The position numbers and the translations under genes are program-made. From contig JADQBM010000032.1 of NCBI GenBank assembly GCA_016278615.1, forward strand, positions 1 through 34,112: a DNA stretch of 34,112 bases, given 5' to 3'. Shown piece after piece: positions 2,947-29,156 of the stretch (the stretch's first letter is position 1; every line of letters starts with the position of its first letter). A model generated the notes under the pieces. That model worked only from the letters and a program-made list of their open reading frames with translations. It ran no database searches and was not told where the DNA came from. This stretch comes from Clostridia bacterium (GTDB taxonomy: Bacteria; Bacillota; Clostridia; Peptostreptococcales; JAAYPU01).

Positions 2947-4728
2947 TTATTTATGGGTTATTATTTCTCCACCCTTGACATCAACACAACACACTCCACA
3001 TGTGGTGTTAGGGGCGTAAGTATACGCAAGCTGTTTGTCGTCAGTTGCATATGTAGACAGATTTTCTATTTCCATTTTACCAGATTTATTGGCAATTTTC
3101 TCGTAGAATTCTTCGGTAAATTTGACACCTGCTTTGAATACAAAAGTTAAAGCATATGGATTCGGATTCCCTTCTTCATCTATCGCACCAACAACCACTT
3201 TATCTACTAGGCTTTCCAATATATCACGATCGAATTCGTCCATCTGGATATCATGATCAAATGCTTTTCTAAAGTGATTGATTCTTGTGCTGATAGATTC
3301 CTCACCTTGAAGCGCTTCATACTTTTCATTTCTTTGATCTCTAAGATCTTTGAGTTCAGCTTCAATGGCACTATATTTCTTATCATAGTCTTCTTTAACT
3401 ATTTTCTCCTCCAATCTCATATCTACCAGTGTTTGAGACTTTGTTTCGAGTTTTCTGATTTGAGTTGTAAGACCATCAACTTTTTCTCTCAATTGCGTAA
3501 CATCCAAGGCTTCTTCGATGTTCTTAAGGAATTCTTCAATGTCAGTTATATTTAGGAGCTGAATCTTATTATATGCACTAACAAAGGCTTCTTCCAAAAG
3601 ACTCTCATGAACACCTTTAGAGTGGGAGCATTCTTTTCGACCATTTTTTATGGCATTACCACATTGCCATGCCGGCTTTTCATGATCTGTGCCATGGTGC
3701 CAAACTCGGCGGATATACGTTCCACCGCAGAACCCACAAGTACACATACTACTAAACGAATGCTTTCTACTGTATTTCCGGGAATCATGTTTTGTTCCAT
3801 GTTTACTGCTTCTCATTCTTAAGATTTCCTGGGCTCTTTCAAACATCTCATCTGAAATAATAGGCTCATGATTGTTTTCAATGTAGAATTTCTCCCTCTC
3901 CCCCATATTGTCTAACCTTCTATGAGTAATCGGGTCAACAGTGAAGGTTTTGCCCTGTAAGAGGTCTCCCTTGTATTTCTCATTTTTAATGATTCCTCGC
4001 ACTGTACTTTCATGCCATTTTGTGCTACCTTTTTTCGTTTTATGGCCTAATTTCGTCAGTTCTTTAGTGATTACAAAGCAACCAGCGCCTTCAACGTATC
4101 TATTGAAGATATATCTAACAATTTCCGCCTCTTCTTCATTAACTGTGATGCTTTTATCTTCTGGATGATAGTCATATCCCAAACAACCATTATAACCAAC
4201 CATCTCGCCCCGTTTCATTTTCATTTTTAGTCCCAAGGTGACATTTGCTGAAATGGATTCACTCTCTTGTTGAGCCAAGGAGCTTAGAATAACCAATAGC
4301 ATTTCACCATTCATGGTTAAGGTATTGATGTTTTCTTTTTCAAACATAATAGCCACATTCTTTTCCTTTAATAACCTCACATATTTTAGTGTGTCTAAGG
4401 TATTTCTAGCAAAACGGGATATAGACTTAGTAATAATCATGTCAATCTTTCCATCAATCGCATCATTAATCATACGCTGGAAATCCATACGCTTATTAGT
4501 TTGTGTCCCTGATATCGCTTCATCAGCATAAATGTCAACTAAGTCCCACTCGGACTTTGTTTCTACTAACTGTTTATAATGAAGCACTTGAGATTGATAG
4601 CTTGTTTTTTGTTCTTCTGAATCCGTACTAACACGGCAGTATGCTGCCACTCTTAATTGATTTTCCATAAAGCTACTTCTTTGCCTTCTTGAATTTTTAC
4701 TCGCTTCAATTACTTTAACATTTGCCAT
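2947..4728 (-). CDS. Large serine recombinase (integrase of a mobile element)
   Basis: This 593-residue enzyme is built as a site-specific large serine recombinase, which inserts and excises integrative elements through a Ser-DNA intermediate. The resolvase domain spans about 25-165, with the nucleophile Ser34 in YCRVSTD and Arg105/Arg108 in SISRFARN. The recombinase domain follows (about 175-300, including GYNGCLGYDY). Next come a Cys-rich zinc ribbon (C329, C331, C334, C356, C367) and a coiled coil (about 395-475) typical of att-site synapsis control. All parts are present and the length is normal, so it is probably active. AGGAGG lies 7 nt before the ATG. It borders decayed chromosomal genes on one side and accessory genes on the other, marking the left end of an integrated element. 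The att core and the right end are not visible. The name TndX-like would be a guess. Confidence 0.9.
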   Translation of the reverse strand: MANVKVIEASKNSRRQRSSFMENQLRVAAYCRVSTDSEEQKTSYQSQVLHYKQLVETKSEWDLVDIYADEAISGTQTNKRMDFQRMINDAIDGKIDMIITKSISRFARNTLDTLKYVRLLKEKNVAIMFEKENINTLTMNGEMLLVILSSLAQQESESISANVTLGLKMKMKRGEMVGYNGCLGYDYHPEDKSITVNEEEAEIVRYIFNRYVEGAGCFVITKELTKLGHKTKKGSTKWHESTVRGIIKNEKYKGDLLQGKTFTVDPITHRRLDNMGEREKFYIENNHEPIISDEMFERAQEILRMRSSKHGTKHDSRKYSRKHSFSSMCTCGFCGGTYIRRVWHHGTDHEKPAWQCGNAIKNGRKECSHSKGVHESLLEEAFVSAYNKIQLLNITDIEEFLKNIEEALDVTQLREKVDGLTTQIRKLETKSQTLVDMRLEEKIVKEDYDKKYSAIEAELKDLRDQRNEKYEALQGEESISTRINHFRKAFDHDIQMDEFDRDILESLVDKVVVGAIDEEGNPNPYALTFVFKAGVKFTEEFYEKIANKSGKMEIENLSTYATDDKQLAYTYAPNTTCGVCCVDVKGGEIITHK

Positions 4729-7338: not shown

Positions 7339-9573
7339 TTATTCAAAGTACTTTCTATCTTTTTTTCTTAATAGGAATTGATGAATTTCGTTAATATCAG
7401 ATGTCACATTACATTTAGGTAGAGATGCCAGCACTGCATCATGGTATTTGCCTTTTACACCAGCTCTTGAATCAAGTATTGATATGACCCCGGTATCTGT
7501 TTCACTTCTAATAAGCCTCCCCACTCCTTGTCTTAATTTGATTAGCATATTAGGAACGAGAACAGAATCGAGGTATGCGTTCATATCCGGATATTGCGTT
7601 TTTTCATATTCACTAATAGGATCTGGTATAGGAAAGGGCAGCTTCACAATAATCAGATGAGATAAGATATCCCCTGGAATATTGATTCCTTCCCACATGC
7701 TCCCTGTTGCAAAGAGCACTCCTTTTTTACTTTTCTTGAAATCATAGATGGCATTATTCTTACCACGCTTCATTGCAATCAAAGGGATATCAGTTATGTA
7801 CTTTTCAATAGCCTTATAAATCAATCTTAAAGGTTTGTAAGATGTAAACAGAACTAAAACATGTCCGTTAGATACTCGAATAAGTGCGGATACTTCTTGA
7901 CTGATACCATCTAAATATTTAGGATCATCAACATTTGGAAAAGGCATCTTATCAGCTATATAAAGCATGCAGTTTTTCCGAAAATCAAAGGGTGACGATT
8001 TGCTAATCTCTTCTATTCTCCAATTATTCAAATCTGACATTCCTAGTTGCTTCTTTATATAGTCGAAGTTGCCATCTACTGCAATTGTTCCAGATGTTAA
8101 TATCATGGAATTCTTTTTTCTCCAAAGATCTTCACCTAACTCTTCATTAATTCTTTTATGAATTGAAGCCAAAGTTCTTTGACCATTACTTTTTGGATTT
8201 TCAATCCAGTAGATGTTGTCTCCTGATATAGTAACTCTTAAGCAATCAATCATCTGATCTAATTCCATAATCAATTGTCTTTCTCTGTAACCAATCGACT
8301 TACGGATTTCTTGAAAATTGAATGCCATTCTTTTTAGAAGTTGGGCAGCTTTAAGTGTTATTACCGTAGGATATCTGTCTGTATCTTCTGAGTAAGAATT
8401 GTCTGGAATTTGTTCAATCAGTTCGGTAAATAATAACCGATTGATTGCTATTACTTCATTACAACGGTTCTTTAATTCTTTTTGATCTTTTCTTTTTTTC
8501 ATCAATTTCTGAATTTCATTTTCAATAATCAATGTTCCATACATTTGCTCTGCTGCATCCATCAGTTTATGTGCTTCATCAATAATGACTACTTGATAAT
8601 CAGGTAATAAAGATTTGTGTCCATCTTTTCTCTTTAAAATATCTGCCAGATAGTAATTGTGATTACAGATTTGAAAATGGTATGTACTTTTTCTTGCTTG
8701 TTTCATAAACTGCTGAAAGCTACAGCTCTTATATTTACTGCAATTCATGCACTGATTGCTTTCAACATGAATCTTCCTTTTATCATAAGCACTGATGTTT
8801 TCTACTTCTCCCAGATCAATAATTCCTTTTTGAATCACTGATTTCAAACCGGCATACTCCTCTGATCTTTTTCTTTTAGGATCTAAAGTATGATAATAGT
8901 CCATGAGCCTATTCTCACAAACATAGTTTTCTTTTCCTTTTCTTAAAACACTGGAAATCGGTGCAGTTATAATGCCATTTTCCATAAGCATTTTGGATAT
9001 CTGGGGAATATATTCTTTAATAATAGAGCGTTGCAGTTCAATGCTCGATGTGGTGATTACAATAGGCATTTGTTTGTAAGGTGAACCTTTTCTTGAAAAA
9101 ATGCCATGTACTATGGCTGCTACCAAGTAGGCATGCGTTTTCCCCAGTCCTACAGCAATATCACTAATGGATATCTTGCCTTCTTTCATATTCTCATACA
9201 TATGTCTTGATAGACTGACTTGATCTTCTCTAATTTTGAACCCATACCTGGGAAACACCTCACGAAAAATTACATCAATCATTTCAATTCCATTAGATGC
9301 CTGTTTCATATTGTAAAAAGGTAATGCTTTTATTTTTTCAATAATAAGTGCATGTTCATCTACATAAATTCCATTCTTTCTATAAAATAAATACTTTTGT
9401 TCTCCACTAACAAAGTTGACCGCACGGTATCTAAAAGATTTTCCTGAATAGCTCTGAATCAAAATACAATCTTTAATAATAAAAACACCTACAGATGTTT
9501 CAGGCACCCAGTTTAACTTTTTAAGTTTTTTTACAATATCGTTTATATTGTAATTTGGCTGTATATTGTCCAT
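7339..9573 (-). CDS. DinG/XPD-like Fe-S superfamily 2 DNA helicase
   Basis: The 744-residue protein is a DinG/XPD-type 5'-3' helicase. Its Walker A is VGLGKT (141-146). Four Cys (C219, C275, C278, C284) sit where XPD and DinG hold a 4Fe-4S cluster. Next come ICNHNYYL (302-309) and the DEAH box (332-335, VVIIDEAH). The C-terminal half has ILTSGTI, FATGSMWEGINIPG and RQGVGRLIRS, as in helicase motifs IV-VI. Residues 1-90 precede the helicase core and are unassigned. The open frame extends to a GTG at 9600, but AGGAG at 9583-9579 fits the ATG at 9573 (5 nt) better. Helicases like this sit near recombinase and sigma-like genes in Clostridia integrative elements, where they may help replication or processing of the excised circle. 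That role is inferred. Confidence 0.85.
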   Translation of the reverse strand: MDNIQPNYNINDIVKKLKKLNWVPETSVGVFIIKDCILIQSYSGKSFRYRAVNFVSGEQKYLFYRKNGIYVDEHALIIEKIKALPFYNMKQASNGIEMIDVIFREVFPRYGFKIREDQVSLSRHMYENMKEGKISISDIAVGLGKTHAYLVAAIVHGIFSRKGSPYKQMPIVITTSSIELQRSIIKEYIPQISKMLMENGIITAPISSVLRKGKENYVCENRLMDYYHTLDPKRKRSEEYAGLKSVIQKGIIDLGEVENISAYDKRKIHVESNQCMNCSKYKSCSFQQFMKQARKSTYHFQICNHNYYLADILKRKDGHKSLLPDYQVVIIDEAHKLMDAAEQMYGTLIIENEIQKLMKKRKDQKELKNRCNEVIAINRLLFTELIEQIPDNSYSEDTDRYPTVITLKAAQLLKRMAFNFQEIRKSIGYRERQLIMELDQMIDCLRVTISGDNIYWIENPKSNGQRTLASIHKRINEELGEDLWRKKNSMILTSGTIAVDGNFDYIKKQLGMSDLNNWRIEEISKSSPFDFRKNCMLYIADKMPFPNVDDPKYLDGISQEVSALIRVSNGHVLVLFTSYKPLRLIYKAIEKYITDIPLIAMKRGKNNAIYDFKKSKKGVLFATGSMWEGINIPGDILSHLIIVKLPFPIPDPISEYEKTQYPDMNAYLDSVLVPNMLIKLRQGVGRLIRSETDTGVISILDSRAGVKGKYHDAVLASLPKCNVTSDINEIHQFLLRKKDRKYFE

Positions 9574-9597
9574 CATTTCTCCTTTTGTTGAATTATT

Positions 9598-9662
9598 CAC
9601 TTAACAGCACAAACCTAAGACCAAGCAATAATTGCTTCGTAACACGTATCTACTGTTAAGTG
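9598..9662 (-). repeat. Nested inverted repeats in the helicase 5' leader
   Basis: CACTTAACAG (9598-9607) and CTGTTAAGTG (9653-9662) form a perfect 10-bp outer stem. Inside it AAGCAA/TTGCTT forms a second small hairpin. The block ends about 15 nt before the helicase SD site, so on the minus strand it would be a stem-loop in the leader RNA and could control translation. It could equally be a protein-binding DNA palindrome. Confidence 0.55.
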
Positions 9663-10013
9663 ATTTATTTGAATTTAATTAAGTAATATTTTAGGCGGTC
9701 AACGGTTATTGACCTCATAGAATCAACCAAAGCCATTGGCTTCCAGACTAAGGCTGTATTCTCCTGTCTCTTCGTACAGGCTGCCATCCATAGGATCATT
9801 AGGACTTGGCAGAAGTATCGTTCAAATTTTCCCTTATGAGTCATGGCGAATTATCCATACCACTGGATAATTTAAAGCCGGATATTATCGCTCAGGTTAA
9901 ACCGTCTTGGCGCATCCGCTTATGTCGCTTTCCTTACGGTCACAAGGTAACGTACCTAAAATATTGAATATGAGTAAAAATTCTATTCACTATTTGTCAA
10001 GGTTCATAGGGAC
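9663..10013. other. Hairpin-rich intergenic region, candidate structured RNA or transfer/replication origin
   Basis: About 350 bp with no convincing gene but several inverted repeats in series. GGTCAA/TTGACC lies at 9697-9714 and CCTGT/ACAGG at 9763-9780. AATTATCC/GGATAATT lies at 9849-9872. ACCGT/ACGGT (9901-9941) encloses GCGCAT/ATGTCGC, and AGGTA/TACCT lies at 9945-9957. The base composition is visibly less AT-rich than other gaps in the window. It lies between the sigma-like gene's terminator and the helicase, so it may be the helicase's 5' leader, a separate small RNA, or a DNA element such as an oriT or single-strand origin. A 59-codon minus-strand frame (9844-9665) has no ribosome site and is not called. 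Confidence 0.45.
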
Positions 10014-10051
10014 AAAAAACCCCTTCACTTATAAGCCGATAAATGAAGGGG
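10014..10051 (-). terminator. Strong Rho-independent terminator of the sigma-like gene
   Basis: On the minus strand CCCCTTCA pairs with TGAAGGGG (8 bp) and is followed by six T. It lies 20 bp after the sigma-like gene's stop. Confidence 0.85.
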
Positions 10052-10069
10052 GGTGGTCTAAAAAATTTT

Positions 10070-10510
10070 TTATATTTTTATGTGTTTTCTGATTTTGTCA
10101 ATGACTTTTTCTTTTCTGTAATGCAAACAGGTTTTTGAGACATCTAGCTCCGATGCCACTATTCGTTCACTTTTCCCATAAAAAAACAGCTCTTGAATGA
10201 GCCATTTCTCGTCTTCATCTAAAGTTGAAATTGATTCAAGAACTGTTTCAATAAATATTTTATTGGTGACATCTGTTTCAATATCCATATCCTCATCAGA
10301 AAGTATTTCCTCAGCCGAGTACTGGCCATTACCTATATCACTGAAATTCAAGACACCTTTTTTGATATCCCGTTCTTCCAAATACCGTTCTCTACGACCC
10401 ATACGGTAATACACATCATAGATTTCCTTAGTTGTTTCATAATACTTTCCATCCACAGGGATGTAATATTTCTTTTCTTCTTCCTTTTGATCTTCATCTG
10501 AATGATTCAT
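10070..10510 (-). CDS. Sigma-70 family-like protein (region-4 helix-turn-helix)
   Basis: This 146-residue acidic protein has an N-terminal part with YYIPVDGKYYETTKEIYDVY. It ends in a sigma-70 region-4-like helix-turn-helix: STLDEDEKWLIQELFFYGKS, then ERIVASELDVSKTCLHYRKE. Such sigma-like proteins without an obvious region 2 are common in Clostridia integrative elements and phages, where they are thought to drive element genes. The open frame reaches a TTG at 10525, but GGAGG lies 8 nt before the ATG at 10510, which I prefer. It is preceded by a 12-codon leader ORF, two terminator-like hairpins and a promoter with 11-bp repeats (10564-10850), and followed by a strong terminator. It is thus a single-gene unit with an elaborate leader. 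Whether it binds core RNA polymerase is unknown. Confidence 0.7.
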   Translation of the reverse strand: MNHSDEDQKEEEKKYYIPVDGKYYETTKEIYDVYYRMGRRERYLEERDIKKGVLNFSDIGNGQYSAEEILSDEDMDIETDVTNKIFIETVLESISTLDEDEKWLIQELFFYGKSERIVASELDVSKTCLHYRKEKVIDKIRKHIKI

Positions 10511-10563
10511 GTTCCATACCTCCAATTTAGAATTTAATTAACTGTTCATTCCAAAGTAGAAAG

Positions 10564-10602
10564 TTATGGACCACGTATAGAGACCGTAAGTATACCTGAC
10601 AT
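10564..10602 (-). CDS. 12-residue leader peptide ORF upstream of the sigma-like gene
   Basis: AGGAGG (10614-10609) stands 6 nt before an ATG that opens a 12-codon frame, MSGILTVSIRGP, ending in TAA. The next gene starts 53 nt later. The strong ribosome site on so short a frame, placed just after two terminator-like hairpins, suggests a regulatory leader peptide. Its SD segment GGAGGTT is complementary to the AACCTC arms of those hairpins. No expression evidence is available. Confidence 0.5.
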   Translation of the reverse strand: MSGILTVSIRGP

Positions 10603-10626
10603 TGCGAACCTCCTAAAAAATGGCAT

Positions 10627-10660
10627 AAAAAAAGGCCAGAGGTTGCAATAACCTCCAGCC
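10627..10660 (-). terminator. Second terminator/attenuator hairpin before the leader ORF
   Basis: GGCTGGAGGTT pairs with AACCTCTGGCC on the minus strand (11 bp, two G-T) around a 5-nt loop and is followed by seven T. It lies between the repeat-linked promoter (10763-10791) and the leader ORF, so transcripts from that promoter would stop here unless the hairpin is prevented from forming. Confidence 0.75.
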
Positions 10661-10701
10661 AAGAATTTGCCTGCATTAACTTTTAACTAAAAATGGGCAT
10701 T

Positions 10702-10733
10702 AAAAAACCTCCACTCTTAAAAAAGCAGAGGTT
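10702..10733 (-). terminator. First terminator/attenuator hairpin
   Basis: On the minus strand AACCTC pairs with GAGGTT and is followed by TTTTTT. It starts 30 bp after the -10 box at 10763. It could also serve as terminator of the ArpU-like gene, which ends at 10838. Confidence 0.65.
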
Positions 10734-10762
10734 CACACATATCTATTTCACCCAGCATATCC

Positions 10763-10791
10763 ATTATATGTCATTGACAATATCACGTCAG
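10763..10791 (-). promoter_or_regulatory. Promoter of the leader/sigma-like unit
   Basis: TATAAT at 10768-10763 with CTGACG (10791-10786) 17 bp upstream on the minus strand. The -10 is perfect but the -35 is weak (4 of 6), as expected for a promoter that needs an activator. The 11-bp direct repeats at 10774-10850 run right up to the -10 and stay in phase with it. Confidence 0.6.
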
Positions 10792-10850
10792 TACCAAAGC
10801 AGTCTCTATTTTGTATCATTTCAGTTTCAATTCAGTATCAATTTTGTTTC
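10774..10850 (-). repeat. Seven tandem 11-bp direct repeats upstream of a -10 box
   Basis: Read on the minus strand from 10850, the sequence divides into seven 11-mers: GAAACAAAATT, GATACTGAATT, GAAACTGAAAT, GATACAAAATA, GAGACTGCTTT, GGTACTGACGT, GATATTGTCAA. The following 11 bases end in TATAAT. Most units start G-A/G-x-A-C. The spacing of about one helical turn would place bound protomers on one DNA face. The first unit overlaps the last codons of the ArpU-like gene. An activator-binding array is the likely role. Confidence 0.7.
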
Positions 10851-11365
10851 ATATTCTTCATAAACTCCGGGAGTACATAACCCCATAGGATTACACCGAA
10901 CAAAGAAATCGCCTTTTTTCTTTGTCTAAAATAAGTGGATCTGGATAGTTGGAGCATTTCCAACAATTCCTGCTCTGCGTATTTCTTTTCTGCAAAGTAT
11001 GTACACTTAAGAATCTCATGGTACTGCTCCCCTTTTTTCGGATAAGTACTAAGCTTAACCATAGCACTATTGATAATATCGATGATCACTTTACTGGCTT
11101 CTGTATCTTCCAGTTGTTCATGCAACAATTTAGCTTTTAGGTCAGTTCCGAATTCTGTTATTACGTCCAAAACAGCCAAAGACGAATCGCCATACATCTC
11201 CTTGCATTCACAAATCATATTACTGTAACTCTCTTTCATTCCCCAAAGAACATCTGAGTAAATGTTAAGCAATAAATGCGCATCGTGATAAACCTTATCA
11301 TCTATCTCTTCATAAACCCGAAAAGAGTTCATTAATCTTTCAATGCCATTTGTTGTTTTCCCCAT
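10838..11365 (-). CDS. ArpU/RinA-like late transcription regulator
   Basis: This 175-residue helical protein ends with a helix-turn-helix segment: EQELLEMLQLSRSTYFRQRK, then KAISLFGVILWGY. The S-x-S/T-Y-x-R/K-x-R-K-x-A pattern with a trailing LFG-x-x-LWG is the signature I associate with ArpU/RinA-type phage late-gene activators and related Firmicutes mobile-element proteins. The N-terminal 100 residues are helical and unassigned. GAGGGG precedes the ATG by 8 nt. A perfect sigma-A promoter (11454-11482) with operator dyads lies between it and the divergent ImmR-like gene. The phased 11-bp repeats begin at its own stop codon, so they are the natural candidate target. Both regulatory links are inferred from position. 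Confidence 0.65.
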   Translation of the reverse strand: MGKTTNGIERLMNSFRVYEEIDDKVYHDAHLLLNIYSDVLWGMKESYSNMICECKEMYGDSSLAVLDVITEFGTDLKAKLLHEQLEDTEASKVIIDIINSAMVKLSTYPKKGEQYHEILKCTYFAEKKYAEQELLEMLQLSRSTYFRQRKKAISLFGVILWGYVLPEFMKNMKQN

Positions 11366-11394
11366 AATCTAATCCCCTCTTCCCTTTCATTTTA

Positions 11395-11424
11395 TTGACT
11401 TTTCAAGTAGTTTCGTGTTATTAT
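11395..11424 (+). promoter_or_regulatory. Candidate promoter of the ImmR/ImmA-like pair
   Basis: TTGACT (11395-11400), 18 bp, TATTAT (11419-11424) on the plus strand. Transcription would start near 11431 and run through the operator at 11450-11477, which would allow autoregulation as well as control of the divergent promoter. Confidence 0.5.
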
Positions 11425-11449
11425 ATTAACGCGAACGTTTGTTCTTTCC

Positions 11450-11477
11450 GTTCATTATACATGAACAATTAGTTCAT
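11450..11477. promoter_or_regulatory. Operator: three GTTCAT half-sites forming two overlapping dyads
   Basis: GTTCAT (11450-11455), ATGAAC (11461-11466) and GTTCAT (11472-11477) are each separated by 5 bp and cover the spacer and -10 of the ArpU-like promoter. A related GAAC-4-GTTC dyad lies at 11433-11444. This fits an XRE-type dimer binding cooperatively. The ImmR-like protein encoded next door is the likely ligand. Confidence 0.65.
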
Positions 11478-11482
11478 GTCAA
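11454..11482 (-). promoter_or_regulatory. Perfect sigma-A promoter of the ArpU-like gene
   Basis: TTGACA (11482-11477), 17 bp, TATAAT (11459-11454) on the minus strand match consensus at all 12 positions. The spacer holds operator half-sites, so the promoter is strong but can be shut off. Confidence 0.8.
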
Positions 11483-11525
11483 TACTTGTAAATTATTGAC
11501 ACTAAAATTAGAAGAGGTGTGTACA

Positions 11526-11936
11526 ATGACTTTAGGAAATAAGATAAAACAGCTAAGAAACGAACGTAACATGACCCAGCCTGATCTTGCCACCGAATTA
11601 GGCGTTACCGTTCGTACTGTTGCCTATTATGAAAATGATGAAAGGCAACCAACGAAATCAACTATTTTAAAACTCTGTAAGCTGTTTAATGTAACATCCG
11701 ATTATTTGTTATCAGAAAATGAATCTTTTTTAATTGACGCTGAGGACAAATACGGTTTACGGGGTAAAAAAAAGGCCGAATCGTTTATCAACGAAACTGC
11801 TCTACTCTTTGCGGGAGGAGAATTAAGTGAAGAAGATCAAGATAAAGTATTTAAGGCCATTACAGAAATCTACTGGCGCTCTAAAGAGAAAAACAAGAAA
11901 TACATTCCAAAAATATACCGAGATGATGAAAAGTAA
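11526..11936 (+). CDS. XRE-family repressor, ImmR-like
   Basis: This 136-residue protein has a classic N-terminal Cro/CI helix-turn-helix: MTLGNKIKQLRNERNMTQPD, then LGVTVRTVAYYENDERQPTK and LCKLFNVTSDYLL. A C-terminal part (about 75-136) is rich in charged residues. The open frame extends to 11439, but AGAGGTG lies 8 nt before the ATG at 11526, and the HTH begins there as in relatives. It is followed 32 bp later by an ImmA-like metalloprotease gene. That pair is known from ICEBs1, where ImmA cleaves the ImmR repressor after DNA damage or peptide signalling to induce the element. The same role here is inferred. The operators at 11433-11477 are its likely targets. Confidence 0.85.
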   Translation: MTLGNKIKQLRNERNMTQPDLATELGVTVRTVAYYENDERQPTKSTILKLCKLFNVTSDYLLSENESFLIDAEDKYGLRGKKKAESFINETALLFAGGELSEEDQDKVFKAITEIYWRSKEKNKKYIPKIYRDDEK

Positions 11937-11968
11937 TTTTTTTAATTCTCTCTATGGGGGAGGAAGAT

Positions 11969-12478
11969 TTGAACGATTACATTATTAAACGCTCAACAGG
12001 ATTGATAAAGAAATATAATACACGAGACCCCTTTGAAATTGCAGCATCCATGAATATCGATGTGCTGTTTAGAGATCTTGGGCATTTGAAAGGATTTTAT
12101 AAAAGAGACGGGCATAACCGGTTTATTGTCATCAACGATAAATTAAATGAATCTTTTCAAAAGATTGTCTGCGCCCATGAACTCGGACATGATCAATTAC
12201 ACAGGCATCTAACCAAAAGTCATACTCTACAGGAATTCGCAATTTATGATATGAGATGTAAGCCGGAATATGAAGCCAATCTTTTTGCTACTGAAATATT
12301 ATTACCGGCTCAAGACGTGCTGTCATTATTTCATCTAGGGTACAGTTTCTATGAGACAGCAAGCCTTCTTGATACAGATATTCATTTATTGGCAATCAAG
12401 CTTATGATTATGAACAAAGTCGGATATAACTTGAATATTCCAGTTGAACTAAAATCAAATTTTTTAAATGCTAATTGA
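11969..12478 (+). CDS. ImmA/IrrE-family metalloprotease (anti-repressor)
   Basis: The 169-residue product has the zinc motif HELGH (70-74, in CAHELGHDQLHRH) and the downstream acidic residues in EYEANLFATEILLP expected to supply the third ligand, as in ImmA/IrrE (DUF955). The N-terminal KKYNTRDPFEIAASMNIDVL also fits ImmA. An ATG at 11954 is open in frame, but it lies inside the SD-like GGGGGAGG. A TTG at 11969 sits 5 nt after GGAGG and gives the usual family start, so I use it. It is predicted to cut the neighbouring XRE repressor and so induce the divergent ArpU-like gene. A strong terminator overlaps its stop. Confidence 0.85.
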   Translation: MNDYIIKRSTGLIKKYNTRDPFEIAASMNIDVLFRDLGHLKGFYKRDGHNRFIVINDKLNESFQKIVCAHELGHDQLHRHLTKSHTLQEFAIYDMRCKPEYEANLFATEILLPAQDVLSLFHLGYSFYETASLLDTDIHLLAIKLMIMNKVGYNLNIPVELKSNFLNAN

Positions 12479-16491: not shown

Positions 16492-19400
16492 TTATTCAAA
16501 TAAACTCATTTGCGTTGTTCTTGTGTATAAATAAGCCTTTTCTAACTTTTCACTTACTTTAAATCCTGCAAAATTATTTTCCTGGACTTCTAGATATTCC
16601 TGCTTCATCGTATTTTGCCGGATTTTAATCATATACACCAGATTAAAGCTGTTTAGAACTGCGCCTTCTTTTATATCCGACAAGCAAATCAGCTGTGTAT
16701 CATATTTTTTGGCAATATCAAACATAGGTTTAAGTAAATGCCCAGATGTTATTGGACCAAATGGATTATCCATTATCAGAACTTTACTTTCTTCCTTCTT
16801 CTTAAATGTTTCGCTATTTGGAGTGTTCTTTCGACTATATGAGATTAGGGCAACTAATAATGAAAAGTATGCAACGAACTTCTCCCCACCTGAGTTTTTA
16901 ACGATAATCTCCTCCCAAGGCATCATTCTTCTATTACTTTCATTAATATCTACTTTATATGCCTTTACCTTAAAGTTTTCAAGATTACTAACAACATTCA
17001 AAAGCTCTTTTGTAGAAAGTAGTTTCACAATATTCTTCCTTATTTTGCTTTCGTCTTCTTTGTTTTTTATATCTTGTGTAATATTCTCTAAGCATAATTG
17101 AATATGATCCTTGATTTTCCCTTTGGCTATCTCATCACTTTGGATTTTATCATATTGAATGTCTAGAATTTTCCTTCTAGTTCCTTCGATTTCAATACTT
17201 GAGTTGTCTGCAATTTTGGGTATCTCATGATATATCCTCATAGCCTCAATATAAGCATGTTCAACTAAGTCTTTTTTACTATGATCCAGTTGATCAATTT
17301 TGCTTTGCATCAATTTCATCATTGTTTCTAATTGATGATCATAAAAATCAATACGTTCTATCAAATAGTAATACTTGTCGTACCTACGAGTAAGATTATC
17401 AATCTGTCCATATATGCCTTTAATCGCCTCTATAACGGTACTGGAACTGGAATCTTTGTGCTTATCTTTGATGCTTTTGCTGATTTTTTCAAAATCCTTT
17501 ATAGATACGTTCGCTTTATTTGATGTTTCAGTAAACTGATTAATCAAGCCTATAACTCCTGCTTCCAGATTATCATCTACCTTCATTATAAAATTCACAT
17601 CACCGTATATTTGGTCAACATTTTCAATTTTCCCGTAAATTCTTTCTTTCATGTTTGATAGAAGCATCATTTGAGCATTGAGGTTTTTAAGATCTTCTTC
17701 CAAGTTACCTTTTAGTAATTTAAGCTTATCTTTCCTTGCCTCAAAATCGCCTTTAATTTCTGCTTTTTCTAACTTTTGAGCCCCATTTAATTCACTTAAA
17801 ATCGGTTTGAGTTCACCATTAGATTCTGAAATTTTTTTATCAATTTCATTGACCTTTTTAGTTAGGTTTTTCTTCTCAATCTTCAATGATTCTAATCGTT
17901 CCCCTACCTCTTTTTCAGTAATTTCGGAATAAATAATGTTTCTTACATCCGCTGTCACTAAACCTAATCTTTCAATATTCTTATTTGAGCGGCTGATATC
18001 CTTATCAATATTTTCTATTCTCTTTTGAATATTTAAAACATCATCCGTCATTTGATTTTTAAAAGCCTTCAACTTACCTAAGAGCTCTGATTCGGTCTTA
18101 TCTATGATATCTGTGTCTTCCGCATCTATATATAGTTCAAGGTTTTCTTTGGCAGTATTTAGGTTATCCTCAATCTGCGTCATATTATTTTTCTCTATTA
18201 TGATTGAGTCTTTTAAACTTCCTCTTTTTTTACTCGCTTGCTTTAATTCATCCACTAATACCTTTTCTTGAGCTTTTACTTGATTCAATAACTCCAAATC
18301 TGTCATATACTGATTGTTTCTATTCAAATAAGCTTCAAATAGAGACAGTTCTTCTTTCTGTTGATTAATGGAATCTTTTGCATTTAAACATTTTTCTTTC
18401 AAAGTCTCAATATCTTGCCTAAAATGCTCAATGCTTGCATTGGCGCTTTCCTGATCATCCTTTAGATTACAAAGCACCTTAGAAATTCTCGTTTTTTCGC
18501 TAAATATTCTTTTCTCATCGTCTTCTGTCCACTGAAAGTTTTCAACTTCTTTTATTGCACCATAATAATTACGAGAGGTTTCTTCTGCAGCAATCTTCTC
18601 GTTTACTAAATTTTCCTTTTGAGTCTCGATTTTTTCAACATATTTAACTAGATCCTTTTGATCATATTCTAATAGTTGAGGATTTGAAAGCACACGACAA
18701 TTTAAGGTCTCAATAGACATTTCTTTATCAGCGTGTTTAAACAAAGGAACTAATTGCCCTAAATTGGTATCTTCTATAAGTTCTTGAATTAATTCACTTT
18801 CTTTTTCTGAAACAATCATCCCATAAGGAAGTAGTGGATTATCATGGATAATCTGTTTTCTTGCTTCAACTGCCAAAGATCTAAGATAAGACTCTCCGGT
18901 ATAAATATCTATATTGTTTGCTTTCAATGTACTCACTAATGAAGCCGGTATATAGCTTACGCCTTCCTTCAGCCCGTTTACCATCTTTATAAGTTCATTA
19001 ATCTCTGTTTCGTATCGTAGAGCCTTTTGATGCCATTGACTATGCTGATCACGCAAATATCCTAAAATTGATTCATTATCAAAAATGCCATAATGATCAT
19101 TACAGTAAATTGAAATGATAGATTGAATCTCATCCTTTTTCCTCTCAAAATCTGAAATTATCCTGTCATTTTCAAACTGTTCTTTCGAAGTAATTTCAAT
19201 TTTATCAGCTATTTCAGTAAGTACTTCTTTTAGCCTTTCAATACTATTGTTCAATTCTTCAATCTTCAATTGGTCAGTTTCTAGCGCCTTGCTAAGTTTA
19301 TTAATTCTCGAAAAGTACTGCTCTTTTATAGAATTTATTTCATCCACATTCAGCTCATTTAATAATGGATTACGATATAATTCAATACCAAGTTCTAAGA

Positions 19401-20886
19401 AAGTGGTCTTCTCATATTCAACAAACCCTTTCGTCTCATTATTTAATTCACCTTTTCTTAGAATCAAGTTCTCTTTCTGTTCATTTTTCGAATCTATTGA
19501 TTCATTGAGAGCATTTTTTTCTTCGGTTAATTGATTGATTCTAGAAACGCAGATCGAAAGATCATTGTTAATATTCTCTATTATTTTTGAATAGTAACAT
19601 TTTAAAGAATATTTAATTTGATTCATCTCTTTTAGGAGCTGTTCTTGATTTTTACTTGCATTTTCAAGAGACTGTTCTAGTTCAGCCCTTTCTTCTGTTT
19701 TCTCTCTGACAACTTCAAACTCACGAGCACCCATATGAAGATTCAATTCGTATTGGTTTGTCTCAACCTGATACTCTATTTCAGCAAGTTGCTCTTTAAC
19801 CTTCTCAAGTTCATCAGTTAACTCTTGTATTCTATCTTTAATCAGATAAATTTCATAAGACTTTTTCTCCAGTTCAATATGTTCCATATCGCGCTGATTC
19901 TGTAATTTTTCATTTGTAATAGTAGTCTCTTTATCCTTCATCTGACTTAGTTTATTGTTAAAGAAATGATAAGCACTTGCTAAGTTGACTCTTTTTTGCT
20001 CTTCAACATCGAGCATATCACATACTTCTTTGGCACCTGCCTCAATTTCCTTAAGGTCATTGATAAATTTACTTATCTCTTGGTATTCGCTAATAAAATT
20101 CTCGTTTTCTACTTCATCTATGGCCACCTGATTCATCATTTGCTCTAATTTCTGATGATCCGATACTTTTTCTTCTGAAGATTTATCTAAAACATTTTCA
20201 ATATATTTTATAATCCATTGTTCCATGACCTGTCTTGAATTTTTACATTGTGCAAAAACTTCTGAGACACCATGCTCTGCTTGGTTAATATTCACCATCA
20301 ATTCCTTCCACTCATTGCGCGAAATACTATAATTGCTTAATTTTCTTTCGTATGCAGTTTGTTCTTCTTTGGACGAATTGTAACAATCTATATCATATTT
20401 TCCTTTATTTGCTTCATTATTCAATATTTTTTTCAATTCCGAATACCCCGAAATAACAATTCCATTATTTTTTTCTTCTGTAACCGGTATATGCTTAATA
20501 TCAAATGGATTAGCTTCTTCGTAATGGTGCATATATGTGTAAAATCGTAAATTCAAATTATCTTCATCCGAATTCAGGGTATAATTGATACTGGAGGAAA
20601 TGCCAATACCAGTTAGTAGATATCCGGCTTGATCATCTAGTATCCACTCAATCATAATGTAAACTGGGTCTTTCTTTCCAATAAAAAAATCACTGAAACT
20701 ACGTCCGAGTAATTTCGTTTTTGGAACAATAGGCTGAAATATTGTTTGTACTAAAACAGATTTACCTCCACCGTTTGCAAGACTAAGAAGAGCATTTTCG
20801 CCATTATAGAAATCAAAAGTCTCATCAATAATATGTCGGTTGTTATAAATAAAATTGGTAATACGAATTCTATTGATTTTAGGCAT
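16492..20886 (-). CDS. jetC: Wadjet JetC, MukB/SMC-like ATPase
   Basis: This 1464-residue ATPase is the motor of a Wadjet system, which extrudes DNA loops to recognise small circular DNA for cutting. Walker A is NGGGKS (38-43). Long Glu/Lys/Ile-rich coiled coils fill most of residues 200-1250 around a hinge-like middle (about 620-740). The ABC signature SGGEK lies at 1332-1336, followed by VLIMDNPFGPITSGHL. The Walker B Asp is 1373. The usual next Glu is Asn (DNPFG), which may be normal for this subfamily. The frame extends to a TTG at 20907, but the ATG at 20886 starts 1 nt after the jetB stop with GGGAG upstream. It is the last gene of the D-A-B-C operon. Confidence 0.9.
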   Translation of the reverse strand: MPKINRIRITNFIYNNRHIIDETFDFYNGENALLSLANGGGKSVLVQTIFQPIVPKTKLLGRSFSDFFIGKKDPVYIMIEWILDDQAGYLLTGIGISSSINYTLNSDEDNLNLRFYTYMHHYEEANPFDIKHIPVTEEKNNGIVISGYSELKKILNNEANKGKYDIDCYNSSKEEQTAYERKLSNYSISRNEWKELMVNINQAEHGVSEVFAQCKNSRQVMEQWIIKYIENVLDKSSEEKVSDHQKLEQMMNQVAIDEVENENFISEYQEISKFINDLKEIEAGAKEVCDMLDVEEQKRVNLASAYHFFNNKLSQMKDKETTITNEKLQNQRDMEHIELEKKSYEIYLIKDRIQELTDELEKVKEQLAEIEYQVETNQYELNLHMGAREFEVVREKTEERAELEQSLENASKNQEQLLKEMNQIKYSLKCYYSKIIENINNDLSICVSRINQLTEEKNALNESIDSKNEQKENLILRKGELNNETKGFVEYEKTTFLELGIELYRNPLLNELNVDEINSIKEQYFSRINKLSKALETDQLKIEELNNSIERLKEVLTEIADKIEITSKEQFENDRIISDFERKKDEIQSIISIYCNDHYGIFDNESILGYLRDQHSQWHQKALRYETEINELIKMVNGLKEGVSYIPASLVSTLKANNIDIYTGESYLRSLAVEARKQIIHDNPLLPYGMIVSEKESELIQELIEDTNLGQLVPLFKHADKEMSIETLNCRVLSNPQLLEYDQKDLVKYVEKIETQKENLVNEKIAAEETSRNYYGAIKEVENFQWTEDDEKRIFSEKTRISKVLCNLKDDQESANASIEHFRQDIETLKEKCLNAKDSINQQKEELSLFEAYLNRNNQYMTDLELLNQVKAQEKVLVDELKQASKKRGSLKDSIIIEKNNMTQIEDNLNTAKENLELYIDAEDTDIIDKTESELLGKLKAFKNQMTDDVLNIQKRIENIDKDISRSNKNIERLGLVTADVRNIIYSEITEKEVGERLESLKIEKKNLTKKVNEIDKKISESNGELKPILSELNGAQKLEKAEIKGDFEARKDKLKLLKGNLEEDLKNLNAQMMLLSNMKERIYGKIENVDQIYGDVNFIMKVDDNLEAGVIGLINQFTETSNKANVSIKDFEKISKSIKDKHKDSSSSTVIEAIKGIYGQIDNLTRRYDKYYYLIERIDFYDHQLETMMKLMQSKIDQLDHSKKDLVEHAYIEAMRIYHEIPKIADNSSIEIEGTRRKILDIQYDKIQSDEIAKGKIKDHIQLCLENITQDIKNKEDESKIRKNIVKLLSTKELLNVVSNLENFKVKAYKVDINESNRRMMPWEEIIVKNSGGEKFVAYFSLLVALISYSRKNTPNSETFKKKEESKVLIMDNPFGPITSGHLLKPMFDIAKKYDTQLICLSDIKEGAVLNSFNLVYMIKIRQNTMKQEYLEVQENNFAGFKVSEKLEKAYLYTRTTQMSLFE

Positions 20887-20887
20887 A

Positions 20888-21580
20888 TTACAGCTCTCCC
20901 TTCTCAAATGCTCTATTAATGCTATTTAGTCTGTCTACATGTAAGTAGTATTGTCGCATCAAAGCATCCAGCTTAGGTGTTGTTCTTATCTGTTCCTCAA
21001 CAATATAAGCTAATTTCTGATCTTCAAGTATCTTACACACATTACGAATGATATTGTATTTTGTTTTACGTTTCGACTCATGATCTGTAAACAACGCAGT
21101 CCATAGCTTAATAGATGACTGAATATTAATCATATATTCCTCTTCTAAATCTTCTATTTCTTCATCATTTAAAACCTCTAGTCGTTCGAATCTTTCATCA
21201 AGTTTAGAAATCAAATGGCTTATTTGAATAAAATCTACTTTCTTAGGATCTCTATTGGCACCACTATAAAACTCATAAAATATGTACATGATAATATAAA
21301 AACCTAAGTATACATCTCTTTGAGTGGCATTGCTTCCAAAATATTGCCTAAACTCTGCCGGTTTGATCCCCAGAATAAATCCATCAAGTTTCGGCACAAG
21401 ATAAATCGTGTCATCAAAGCTTAAAAATTTACATTCAAACTCTTCTTCGAATATACTCAATATTTCTTGGACATTGCTATCGATATAATCACTATAGAGG
21501 TCAAAGTTTTCTTTTCTATTAATTTCACCATTTAGGATAAGCATCTTGAATATTCTAATTGCAGATTTCATTGCTTCCAC
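20888..21580 (-). CDS. jetB: Wadjet JetB, MukE-like (DUF6063-like)
   Basis: The 230-residue acidic protein has MukE-like two-winged-helix character: an N-terminal IRIFKMLILNGEI, YLVPKLDGFILGIKPAEFRQ and a late YNIIRNVCKILEDQKLAYIV. In Wadjet, JetB dimers bind JetA and load it on JetC. I assign it mainly by its place between jetA and jetC, by size, and by resemblance to DUF6063 proteins. Translation starts at a GTG overlapping the jetA stop (TAGTG), with GGTGGTGA upstream; an ATG 9 nt later is the alternative. Its stop is 1 nt from the jetC start. Confidence 0.82.
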   Translation of the reverse strand: MEAMKSAIRIFKMLILNGEINRKENFDLYSDYIDSNVQEILSIFEEEFECKFLSFDDTIYLVPKLDGFILGIKPAEFRQYFGSNATQRDVYLGFYIIMYIFYEFYSGANRDPKKVDFIQISHLISKLDERFERLEVLNDEEIEDLEEEYMINIQSSIKLWTALFTDHESKRKTKYNIIRNVCKILEDQKLAYIVEEQIRTTPKLDALMRQYYLHVDRLNSINRAFEKGEL

Positions 21581-23178
21581 TATATCACCACCTTAAACGT
21601 TAAATCTGACATACTTACTTCTTCACGTATTGTCATATTATTTTCCTGAAACTCTATCACTTCAACAATTACATCTGTTGATTTTGTGATGTTTAATGAT
21701 ATAACATCTTTTAGGCCTTCAATTTTGTTCTCTAGTTCAATAAGACAACGTTCTAAATTAAACATCTCACTAGCTCCCATCATTACCTTGCTATGACTCT
21801 TGTAGAATTCTTTAAGATGTATTTCTTCAAGATCAAATAATTTGAACGCAATCGAAAACAGACCTCGCTCTTTACACAGTTCCGTATATTCTTCCGGATT
21901 ATTCGTTTTTAATCGATTAATTATTTCACTTAAGTTAATCTGCTTACATTGAAGAATTTCACCAAGTAACAGCTCAACAATTCTTAAATGCTTATTGCTA
22001 ATCCTTTCAATTCTATTCTTTTCAATTTCATCATAATATTCTTCTGTGTTAACCAAAAATGTTTCTTCTGCTTCTGTTTCATTAAATATCATTTGTTGAT
22101 TATATATCTGGTCTACACTTAACGTCTTAGTTAATTCCGGCAGAAATAAGGGGTTAAGCAGACTAATGCAATTATCTAAGACAGCATTATATTTTTCTAG
22201 CGGTTCAAGGATACTTCCTTCGATATTAAACTTTTTTACAAAACTATATTCAAATGAACGCTTAATCGTATCCATGTATAACTCACTCAGATTATATCTA
22301 TTAATAATTAAATTTCTTTGTTCACTTATAGCTATGCCCAAATTATGGTGTATCTCTTGTATTTCATGAATAGCCTTGGCTAGTTTATCCTCAAGTTGTT
22401 TACTGGCGTCTAACTCTTCATTAATCTTTTCACCCGCTTGCTGTATCATTCTTTGAATATCATCCATGGTATCATATTCATCTTGAAGCATAGCATATGT
22501 TCCATTTAATAGCTGCTCATATTGATCAATATCAACATTATCAATGTTTTGTCTAATCGAGAGAATGAAATTTTCAACATCTTTCTTTTTTTGCCTTACA
22601 TATGAAATCAATTCAACACTCTGCCTTACAGCACTTGAAAATTTCTTTCTTTTAACATATTCTTTTAGCTTTAATTGCTCAATTGTTAATTGAATCTCTT
22701 CATCAACTTCTCTTGTACGAAAAAGAAAATCATACCCTTGATTCGTTAGCATATAATTCAATCTGCGACTGTCCTTTTCCGTAACAATTTTATCTGTTAT
22801 CAGTCTGATAAGTATATCTTCTTTAGCACCAGTCGAATAATTCACAACACTATACGACCGTCTTTCCCCATTATTTTGAAGGATATCTTTAACAATATAA
22901 CCGGTTAATTCTTTAATCTCTACTTTGTTAAGCTTCAAATTATAGTACCGTTTTATAAGCTCTTCTAAAAACCCCTCAATATGTTGTATGTCGCATTCAT
23001 TATTTTCTTCGAGTGTTTTTTCCATGATGAATAGAAGGACAGATACAATGATATTCGTCATTTCATTGCCTTGGAAAATGCCTTCTAATTTTGTATCCTT
23101 ACCCTTTCGATTGACAATAGAATCTACAACACCAATCCATTCCATTCTTTTCTCAAATTTATCTAGAAAATCCATCAT
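21580..23178 (-). CDS. jetA: Wadjet JetA, MukF-like kleisin (DUF5716-like)
   Basis: This protein of about 532 residues is the kleisin-like subunit. It has an N-terminal winged-helix region (MMDFLDKFEKRMEWIGVVDS), a long helical middle with coiled-coil heptads, and a C-terminal domain reading FSIAFKLFDLEEIHLKEFYK and then MSDLTFKVVI. Kleisins bridge the SMC heads and bind the MukE-like partner. The frame starts at a GTG at 23187. I prefer the ATG at 23178, with AAGAG upstream; either start overlaps the end of jetD. Order and size fit DUF5716/JetA proteins of Wadjet. The sequence is divergent, so much of the confidence comes from context. Confidence 0.82.
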   Translation of the reverse strand: MMDFLDKFEKRMEWIGVVDSIVNRKGKDTKLEGIFQGNEMTNIIVSVLLFIMEKTLEENNECDIQHIEGFLEELIKRYYNLKLNKVEIKELTGYIVKDILQNNGERRSYSVVNYSTGAKEDILIRLITDKIVTEKDSRRLNYMLTNQGYDFLFRTREVDEEIQLTIEQLKLKEYVKRKKFSSAVRQSVELISYVRQKKKDVENFILSIRQNIDNVDIDQYEQLLNGTYAMLQDEYDTMDDIQRMIQQAGEKINEELDASKQLEDKLAKAIHEIQEIHHNLGIAISEQRNLIINRYNLSELYMDTIKRSFEYSFVKKFNIEGSILEPLEKYNAVLDNCISLLNPLFLPELTKTLSVDQIYNQQMIFNETEAEETFLVNTEEYYDEIEKNRIERISNKHLRIVELLLGEILQCKQINLSEIINRLKTNNPEEYTELCKERGLFSIAFKLFDLEEIHLKEFYKSHSKVMMGASEMFNLERCLIELENKIEGLKDVISLNITKSTDVIVEVIEFQENNMTIREEVSMSDLTFKVVI

Positions 23179-24241
23179 TCGTGTCACTCTTTTCTATTTT
23201 CTTTTTTAAAAAACCATATGTGAGTATTTCTTGCGGAATATATACCCCATTAGTTAATAATTCATTAATTTCCTTTGCTTGTCTCTCATTAAAATACTCA
23301 AAAAAACCATTCCCATCAGTATTCTGCTGCTGCTCACTCGATTTAGGCAATGTAACTGCCTTTGCTTCATTCAGCATGTCTATGTATAACTCTTTCATCA
23401 AATAAATATTCAAGTCATAATTAGCATAAATTAAGCTTTCAAAGATCCCTATTCCTTCCATATCTAAATCTCCAAAGTAGTAGTAGTTTACAACCTTACT
23501 GTTGCTATAATTTATTTGAGTGTACTCTGTTAAAGAGTCTTTCTTTCTCGTTACTTTTTTCCCTTCTCCATATAACAGACAATAAATATGTAAATCACAG
23601 AGTTTATTTTTTCCTTTGCTCATTATTTTTCTTAAAGAGTACCATGTATCTTTATTTTCAACAATTAATATGTTGTATTCTGTGATATCTATAGAATCAT
23701 TGATTATATATTCAAAAAAAGGTTCCGGGGTATTGTACATATTCAAAAAATTTTCAAGATTATTATTAAAAGCAAGTACTGACCTAAAAACAGGATCACT
23801 CTTAATCAGTTTTTCAATTCCAAAGATTTGAAATGAACGCTCATTAATCGAAGCAGGTTCCTCTAGAAGAGTAATTTTATCTCTGAAAAATTCATTTAAC
23901 TTTAAAACAATATCACGGTCATTTGAATACTTATAAGTGCTGTTCAAATACCCTTCGATATTAAAGATCGGATGAAGCTTCTTTATTTCACTAATATAGC
24001 CATCACTAGTTTCATCAAGTTTAATAACTTGGTATCTCTTATGTAAAGAAGGGTTAAATCCATTTGGACCTGAAGACTTAATTGGTTTTATTACTTCCTC
24101 TTCAACTAGTTTTAACATCACATGATAGTAAGTATTGTAGTCATCTATGTGGATAGAATTTCTAAGGGATTTTTCTTCTACTCTTTTACCCTCGAAATTT
24201 TTAATAATATATTGTTTAAATCTTGAATACTCCATAGCCAT
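23159..24241 (-). CDS. jetD: Wadjet JetD, Toprim-domain nuclease (DUF2220-like)
   Basis: This 360-residue protein is the topoisomerase VI-A-like nuclease of Wadjet, which cleaves DNA caught by JetABC. The N-terminal half contains a winged-helix part and GIEKLIKSDPVFRSVL. The Toprim domain has E195 in ILIVENKDTW and D258-x-D260 in YYYFGDLDMEGI, the three acids expected to bind metal. JetD comes first in this operon, upstream of JetA, with about 20-29 bp of overlap. The order D-A-B-C differs from the A-B-C-D layout of the best-studied type. The active site is intact, so the system looks functional and would act against plasmids. Confidence 0.9.
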   Translation of the reverse strand: MAMEYSRFKQYIIKNFEGKRVEEKSLRNSIHIDDYNTYYHVMLKLVEEEVIKPIKSSGPNGFNPSLHKRYQVIKLDETSDGYISEIKKLHPIFNIEGYLNSTYKYSNDRDIVLKLNEFFRDKITLLEEPASINERSFQIFGIEKLIKSDPVFRSVLAFNNNLENFLNMYNTPEPFFEYIINDSIDITEYNILIVENKDTWYSLRKIMSKGKNKLCDLHIYCLLYGEGKKVTRKKDSLTEYTQINYSNSKVVNYYYFGDLDMEGIGIFESLIYANYDLNIYLMKELYIDMLNEAKAVTLPKSSEQQQNTDGNGFFEYFNERQAKEINELLTNGVYIPQEILTYGFLKKKIEKSDTNDGFSR

Positions 24242-27852: not shown

Positions 27853-29142
27853 CTATAATAATTCATCAACAACTTTCGCAATACTCGCCTTAACGTCCAT
27901 CAAATCTATAAAACGAATCTTTATCAAAGCCCCATCTAAAGCTTCAAACTCTATATTTTCTATAGATGAAATCTTGTCTGTATTTGGATACAGCAAGATT
28001 ACGTTACGTGAAAGATATTTTTTTTGATAAGCATACATCTGGTACATATCACATTGTAAGATCCCATAATTGTGTTTTGTTCCGGATAAGACTTTCCACT
28101 TCGTATCAAGAACAAAAATATCTTTATTAAGCTTGTTCTTCACTACGATATCCGGTTTTATTAGAAATTTTTTCTTTGGGTGATCAAATAAGTGATAAGA
28201 CTTATCTTGTATCGAGGTAGAAAAACTGAGTTTGTCCAAATATTTATTAAGCTTAGAAGCCACATAGCTCTCAAATAACGTTTCCATTGGAAATAACAAT
28301 GCCGTAGCGATTTCGCTGCCTGAGAAAGCTGTAAAGCTTTTTCCGGAAAGGAATACCTTACACCAATGAATCGCAACAGTATAGTCTTTAAGATTCCGAT
28401 CTATAACAGTTTTTTCAAAATCATTCTTTAAATTCTCTGACGCTTTCACTTCTGAGAAACTGTTCATAAGCGTTTTTATATCGCTCTTATTCTTGGATGA
28501 ATTGCTTCGGAGATATAAAAATTCCAAAGTAGCCTTAATGAGCTTGTTTTCCGGTCTATTAGTAGTGAACTCATCGTACTCTATATATGTTTTTTCTTTG
28601 TGAGCATGATTATATTTAATATGCCTAGAAAACAATACTTTTCCTTTTAAAAAAGTCTCATTGTTTTCTATGGCTTCATAACTGCATTTCAATCCTCGTT
28701 TTACAATAGTAAATACCTCTTTTAAAAACATATGAATAAAAATTTCAAAAATCGGAAGCTTTTCTATCTGCATATCAGAGCTCTGTAAAGATTTAAACGG
28801 TGAATCTTTCAATGACTTTAACATATCGAGTAATAACTTCTTTGATTGGCTATTGCTTATATCTGTATGGGAAAATATCTTAGGTAATATTTCAATGACT
28901 GTACCATCATTCATAACAATAATACCGACATAATTCTTAACACTAATGATTTTCCCAATCCCTTTTTTCGACGAAACCGTCATTAGCTCCAGTGCTTCTG
29001 TGCCATCGTCTGACTTATTTGCTAATACAAATTGTTCTAGACTGTCAAAGATGTGTTCCGACAAAGTAATATAGTTCTCCATATTAAGTTTTTTATTTCT
29101 TGTAAAAGAATCATACTCTTTTACAGTATATACTTTGCTCAT
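27853..29142 (-). CDS. mcrC: McrC-like nuclease subunit of McrBC
   Basis: The 429-residue protein matches McrC. The N-terminal half carries GIGKIISVKNYVGIIVMNDG (61-80), EILPKIF (84-90) and IFEIFIHMFLKEV (131-143). The C-terminal nuclease has PD (330-331, FLIKPDIVV) and D346-T-K348 (VLDTKWK), the PD-(D/E)XK catalytic set. McrC is recruited by McrB rings and cuts modified or foreign DNA. GGGGGTGG precedes the ATG. It starts 14 bp after the mcrB stop, so the two are one operon. The active-site residues are intact. Confidence 0.88.
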   Translation of the reverse strand: MSKVYTVKEYDSFTRNKKLNMENYITLSEHIFDSLEQFVLANKSDDGTEALELMTVSSKKGIGKIISVKNYVGIIVMNDGTVIEILPKIFSHTDISNSQSKKLLLDMLKSLKDSPFKSLQSSDMQIEKLPIFEIFIHMFLKEVFTIVKRGLKCSYEAIENNETFLKGKVLFSRHIKYNHAHKEKTYIEYDEFTTNRPENKLIKATLEFLYLRSNSSKNKSDIKTLMNSFSEVKASENLKNDFEKTVIDRNLKDYTVAIHWCKVFLSGKSFTAFSGSEIATALLFPMETLFESYVASKLNKYLDKLSFSTSIQDKSYHLFDHPKKKFLIKPDIVVKNKLNKDIFVLDTKWKVLSGTKHNYGILQCDMYQMYAYQKKYLSRNVILLYPNTDKISSIENIEFEALDGALIKIRFIDLMDVKASIAKVVDELL

Positions 29143-29156
29143 CTACACACCACCCC

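Follow-up and report, generated by a model that had tools for sequence, protein, structure and literature searches.

Seven 11-bp direct repeats on the minus strand (10774–10850) of the window, i.e., the whole 34,112-nt stretch of clostridial DNA analyzed, very probably form the operator of an activator encoded by the adjacent gene (10838–11365, minus strand), through which a TATAAT promoter of an integrative-element operon would be opened. This reading draws on sequence comparison across homologous loci, a structure model of the protein, and analogy to known phage regulators.

An 11-bp repeat array in phase with a promoter

The array was recognized in the sequence itself, by a 7×11 score, by a unit-weight scan, and in homologous loci, and was independently reported by Tandem Repeats Finder. 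Its units, all on the minus strand, read GAAACAAAATT (unit 1, 10840–10850), GATACTGAATT (unit 2, 10829–10839), GAAACTGAAAT (unit 3, 10818–10828), GATACAAAATA (unit 4, 10807–10817), GAGACTGCTTT (unit 5, 10796–10806), GGTACTGACGT (unit 6, 10785–10795), and GATATTGTCAA (unit 7, 10774–10784), with G..ACT.AA.T as the core motif and units 5 to 7 farthest from the consensus. Self-identity of the array was 0.61, 0.60, and 0.66 at lags 11, 22, and 33, compared to ~0.25 at most other lags. The 7×11 score reached 145 at the array, which is the maximum of the 34-kb window, and at most 121 in 40 whole-window Markov shuffles. The unit-weight scan of the whole window yielded 47 bits at the array and 14 bits at the next best place, and a second copy, sought with it across the window, e.g., 5' of the helicase gene, was not found. 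The seven consecutive minus-strand 11-mers proposed in an earlier sequence-only reading were thus borne out by self-identity, shuffles, and Tandem Repeats Finder, and are unique in the window. The overlap with the stop-codon end of the adjacent gene, also claimed there, amounts to the last 13 bp of 10838–11365. The description as one repeat per helical turn holds for the spacing, which is close to a turn, but as 11 bp slightly exceeds one turn, the units drift by ~0.3 turn across the array.

The 11 bases directly 3' of unit 7 on the minus strand are TGACATATAAT and contain a TATAAT −10 box (10763–10768, minus strand), which occupies positions 6–11 of the 11-bp register, in agreement with the proposed phasing of repeats and promoter. 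The −35 element CTGACG (10786–10791, minus strand) lies within unit 6 at a distance of 17 bp from TATAAT, and 10 of 12 consensus positions are matched; its earlier description as weak stands, since CTGACG is a poor −35. CTGAC was also present at the equivalent place in L002, L004, L005, L008–L014, and L022. When the register was fitted from the repeats alone by expectation–maximization over loci, with −10 boxes accepted at ≥5/6 matches, phase 6 held the first −10 at 14 of the 30 non-redundant loci (~2.7 expected), and unit positions 5–7 held it at 21 of 30 (~8 expected). Because the −10 keeps this register far more often than expected, we regard repeats and promoter as one device. The start-site region that follows, GGATATGCTGG (nnnTATnnTGG; 10752–10762, minus strand), resembles the sequence after the −10 in L005, L010–L014, L020, L022, L023, L028, and L044. 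This element is common to many loci whose repeat sequences are unrelated, and phage TP901-1 has GTATTATGaaG at the same position.

Homologs of the adjacent gene were searched for in 60 relatives and 391 genomes of the class, which revealed proteins at 22–39% identity. The closest relatives (L010–L013; Sporosalibacterium, Petrocella, and twice Fusibacter) share 81–82% protein identity, and their arrays comprise six units versus seven in the window, meaning that one entire 11-bp unit has come or gone without a change of phase. Nearly all homologs, down to 22% identity, carry an array at their 3' end. Among lags 7–19 near the stop codon, lag 11 was strictly best in 33 of 41 loci, compared to 41 of 900 control windows taken from the same loci; the loci are not independent, and shared ancestry inflates all of these counts. 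They span many families and differ in repeat motif, including G..ACT.AA.T, TGAACTAAATA, GA.AG..., GGCACAAAATT, and GGAATTAAATT. The search of related Clostridia that the sequence-only reading had proposed therefore recovered the repeats beside the gene, and the outcome that was to count against it, i.e., gene and promoter kept with the phasing lost, was not seen in most loci. A clear array was absent by lag and register analysis at homologs L027, L036, and L045, and L029 and L032 are doubtful. At L003/L061 (G010:C9, about 9323–10926), a decayed element, the activator gene is cut after ~88 residues and directly followed by a serine recombinase fragment, and array and sigma-like gene are missing.

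Direct repeats near helical spacing can also bend DNA or bind initiators, and some conjugative loci have RepA-like genes, called by eye, ahead of the activator gene. It is nevertheless exceedingly improbable that the repeats are replication iterons or intrinsically bent DNA instead of a promoter operator: their register is tied to the −10 box across diverged loci, their motif varies with the helix–turn–helix (HTH) of the adjacent protein, and no replication initiator was recognized beside the array in the window.

The adjacent gene product as the likely binder

The product of 10838–11365 comprises 175 amino acids and was assigned, by profiles and a structure model, to phrog_1558 as a DUF1492/ArpU-related protein. 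The phrog_1558 profile matched 32 of 33 family members, and weaker links were obtained to phrog_248 transcriptional activator (25/33), to TIGR01637 phage_arpU (15/33, all weak; best E 2.4e-6), and to DUF1492, the phage Ltrb family (PMC5601072), with 14/33 at E ≤ 0.01. The window protein itself scored 18.5 bits against DUF1492/Ltrb (PF07374), below the gathering cut-off of 21.5, produced no match row against TIGR01637 (ArpU), thus staying below its curated cut-off, and did not match the RinA family profile TIGR01636. The earlier label "ArpU/RinA-like" was hence roughly right with regard to the weak ArpU and DUF1492 links within the family, whereas no curated cut-off was passed and the RinA part found no match. 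No homology to Alt or RinA was obtained by hhalign against single sequences of either, at low power, and the family profile had no significant hit among PDB sequences.

An AlphaFold model built from 33 homologs was confident at residues about 90–170. The protein has a helical N-terminal part and a C-terminal HTH that appears to resemble sigma region 4, with a recognition helix at about residues 141–152. Nearly all leading structural matches of the C-terminal part were to sigma region 4, including 3hug_K (Z 7.3) and 1ku7, which is bound to −35 DNA (Z 5.7). As the best Foldseek E-value (0.58) is not significant and the VIA Z-scores range from 5.7 to 7.3, we call this fold with moderate confidence.

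Phage and plasmid records contained only eight distant relatives, so this looks like a family mainly of elements and not of phages; a scan of viral_contigs with the window protein returned no relatives. True ArpU genes at E ≤ 1e-10 were found in one of 291 genomes of the class, and a search for phage relatives of that one protein found none.

Several observations single out this protein as the likely binder. Differences in the repeat motif go along with differences in the recognition helix to a degree that overall protein similarity does not account for (partial r 0.33, permutation p 0.0005), and in a scan of the protein with 9-residue windows, residues 139–147 (QLSRSTYFR) ranked first (r 0.37) and 140–148 second (r 0.36), compared to a median of 0.04; such Mantel-type tests leave part of the shared ancestry in these figures. 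Furthermore, the array is kept at loci where tblastn detects no XRE, ImmA, or sigma-like gene (e.g., L025, L028, L030, L034, and L039–L041), some loci of this kind carrying other, unrelated HTH-type neighbors (e.g., L050 and L051). Array retention and helix co-variation, together with homolog conservation and the −10 register, support the earlier nomination of this gene product, and the DUF1492/ArpU-related protein is likely both binder and activator of the array. The XRE repressor (11526–11936) or the sigma-like protein (10070–10510) might come to mind as the binder instead, their genes being conserved neighbors at many loci. We consider this very unlikely: the array remains where neither gene is detected, changes in motif follow the recognition helix of the 10838–11365 product, and the XRE gene has palindromic candidate sites of its own (ATGAAC..GTTCAT) in the 11366–11525 intergenic region, unlike the repeats.

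Element context and a putative leader attenuator

In most of the nearer relatives, an ImmA–XRE pair is divergent from the series activator, array, sigma-like gene, (DinG-like helicase,) and large serine recombinase. The window follows this order, by profiles and locus comparison, with the XRE (ImmR-like) repressor gene (11526–11936, plus strand) and the ImmA-like metalloprotease gene (Peptidase_M78; 11954–12478, plus strand) on one side, and a sigma-70/RinA-like regulator gene (10070–10510, minus strand), a DinG/YoaA-like helicase gene as the next of the conserved core (7339–9600, minus strand), and the large serine recombinase gene of the element (2947–4728, minus strand) on the other. The sigma-like gene, whose product scored 19.5 bits against RinA TIGR01636 (cut-off 31.9), is likely the first to be driven by the array promoter. 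In the clade of L048/L039, L053/L030, and L056/L032, the activator gene is preceded by a replication-like or other gene and followed by T4SS-like genes, whose VirB2-, VirB6-, and VirB4-like calls were read by eye from the sequences and not by profile. In L052/L034, it lies 5' of a CpaF-like operon, and in L049/L031 5' of genes that are phage-tail-like by eye. With mobilization or transfer operons 3' of its gene, the activator is placed to start such operons. L049 (G393:C3, 6313–10128), in which activator and sigma-like genes precede the tail-like genes and a glutamate dehydrogenase-like gene adjoins, is possibly a tail-like particle locus, judging from its genes. A search of the available literature for ArpU-like activators in conjugative elements found nothing.

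The core in the window is surrounded by dense defense cargo (4953–34106), including AbiEi/AbiEii, S_4TM and SMODS (CBASS-like), and QatB, as well as, by eye, Wadjet-like (16492–24241), McrBC-like (27853–31619), and QatC/QatD-like (31693–33776) genes.

Between the array promoter and the sigma-like gene, we identified two tandem terminators. The first is a terminator-like hairpin (ACCTC...GAGGT followed by a T run; 10702–10732, minus strand) that lies ~25 nt past the expected start site and is kept in position with an altered stem sequence in L010, L011, L013, L005, L002, and L009. The second (10634–10660, minus strand) also occurs in L010–L013, L005, L002, and L009. Such tandem terminators ahead of the first gene are retained in distant loci with different stems, and attenuation or antitermination is possible at both. 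They are followed by a 12-codon leader ORF with a perfect Shine–Dalgarno sequence (10564–10602, minus strand; MSGILTVSIRGP, then a stop codon) and by a hairpin that, by folding, sequesters the Shine–Dalgarno sequence of the sigma-like gene (10508–10572, minus strand; −15.5 kcal/mol). A Shine–Dalgarno-pairing hairpin located where the leader ORF ends, or immediately 3' of it, was found in all 12 folded loci (the window, L002, L004, L005, L010–L013, L018, L020, L022, and L044). The peptides of 11 of these 12 loci share R/H-[GS]-P(-P), i.e., IRGP-stop, IHGP-stop, IRSP-stop, CRSPPF, RSPPC, and ARSPPA, and the codon for Arg alternates between CGN and AGA. Arrest or stalling is known for the motifs RGPP, RSPP, and HGPP (PMC12992588), and structures exist for RAPP arrest peptides (PMC10951233). 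In RSPP leaders, it is the Pro codons that pair with the Shine–Dalgarno sequence, which could by itself favor SPP; this pairing explains neither the Arg of the leaders nor the IRGP-stop and IRSP-stop leaders, whose pairing arm is located 3' of the stop. Leader and hairpin together are a candidate translational attenuator similar to the RAPP class.

Comparison with phage late regulators and proposed mechanism

Genes of Ltr regulators immediately precede the promoter that belongs to them, and the imperfect repeats bound by these regulators are four in number as a rule (PMC13123087). For Alt of the Lactococcus phage TP901-1, the same source cites activation as well as binding to a set of four direct repeats, likewise imperfect, that follow the alt gene and span −76 to −32. 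We computed from the TP901-1 record that these repeats (TGGGTCAAATT, GGGATAAAAAC, GACACGAAAAA, and GGCACGAAATT) are 11 bp apart. Alt and the window protein are thus alike in that a small regulator gene is directly followed by 11-bp-spaced G..AC..AA(A/T)T repeats and then a promoter, and the window array likewise consists of imperfect direct repeats upstream of a −10, at the regulator stop. They differ in that TP901-1 has four repeats instead of six or seven, places its −10 one base off register, and targets phage late genes, and in that the two proteins have no detectable sequence relation. With the Ltr superfamily (RinA, ArpU, Ltrb/DUF1492, and LtrC), the window shares a regulator gene directly upstream of a promoter-like site, over which we presume control, imperfect repeats at the 3' end of the gene, and weak profile similarity to ArpU and DUF1492 (PMC13123087, PMC5601072). 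Ltr genes, however, adjoin terS/packaging genes, whereas sigma-like, helicase, serine recombinase, or T4SS-like operons are found here; packaging or lysis genes as the target operon were not found at the array loci compared. The LtrC repeats of phi13 are 18 bp long (PMC13123087), in contrast to the 11-bp units here.

Two to three 11-bp units can be read by eye 3' of phi11 rinA (TGGCAG twice, then TGATAC) and 3' of the ArpU gene of phage P7571, although lag 22 scored higher in both, and the clostridial ArpU gene L063 is followed by a longer 11-bp set with lag 11 as top lag. The suggestion of a distinct operator type for the family was therefore not upheld, as the Alt sites already share spacing and motif (G..AC..AATT) and an 11-bp series is readable after rinA and ArpU genes. 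The new aspects are that the family as a whole uses this operator in integrative and conjugative elements, that the arrays are longer, and that a leader layer is added. By blastn, the array matched the 3' end of a gene of Streptococcus phage Javan129 (L066, 2593–3100) at E 0.6, which is not significant by itself. This gene is unannotated, takes the late-regulator position ahead of terS, and has GATAC units 10–11 bp apart; it is probably an unrecognized late regulator with the same operator motif.

PhoB/OmpR and SARP proteins are winged-helix regulators whose direct-repeat sites, spaced by about one turn, extend to −35/−10 elements. The array resembles their sites in the near-helical spacing of repeats running into a promoter; the window protein, however, models as a sigma-4-like HTH, and it gave no PhoB/OmpR or SARP winged-helix match against Pfam and NCBIfam.

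We propose that activator copies would bind side by side and cooperatively, one per 11-bp unit and on nearly the same face of the DNA, so that the bound row ends beside and over the poor −35. There, the activator would contact or recruit RNA polymerase and open the TATAAT promoter. Binding of the same protein with repression of its own promoter region or a downstream promoter as the main effect is an unlikely alternative, to which the overlap of units 6–7 with the core promoter (−35 and spacer) could be suited. Five units lie upstream of the −35, the usual place of activators; the poor −35 with a good −10 is like activator-dependent promoters; the array lies downstream of, and not at, the protein's own promoter; and Alt, with the same layout, is an activator (PMC13123087). 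For the activator mechanism, we further propose that the divergent XRE/ImmA pair most likely blocks the activator before induction, in the manner of ICEBs1. The likeness to the ICEBs1 ImmR/ImmA switch lies in the divergent XRE and Peptidase_M78 pair heading the module, and the difference in the activator, array promoter, double terminator, and leader peptide that are inserted here between switch and recombinase. The transcript from the array promoter would meet the two terminators and the leader peptide and then the sigma-like gene. The sigma-like protein, in turn, presumably drives the genes for the helicase and the serine recombinase.

A tentative extension, plausible yet somewhat doubtful, is that a whole class of Gram-positive integrative and conjugative elements uses a two-gate start switch, in which the array activator is followed by the terminators and a RAPP-like arrest peptide. 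A ribosome stalled on an RGP-stop, HGP-stop, RSP-stop, or RSPP leader would unmask the ribosome-binding site of the sigma-like mobilization gene, and mobilization would then also sense the state of translation. The operator reading would provide the function-unknown phrog_1558 family, which lies beside recombinase and conjugation genes in many Clostridia, with a readable operator, and the link between repeat sequence and recognition helix could allow binding specificity to be deduced for the family as a whole. The same reading would also tie a phage late-gene control scheme to defense islands and conjugative elements, and it predicts the promoter that launches the movement of such elements.
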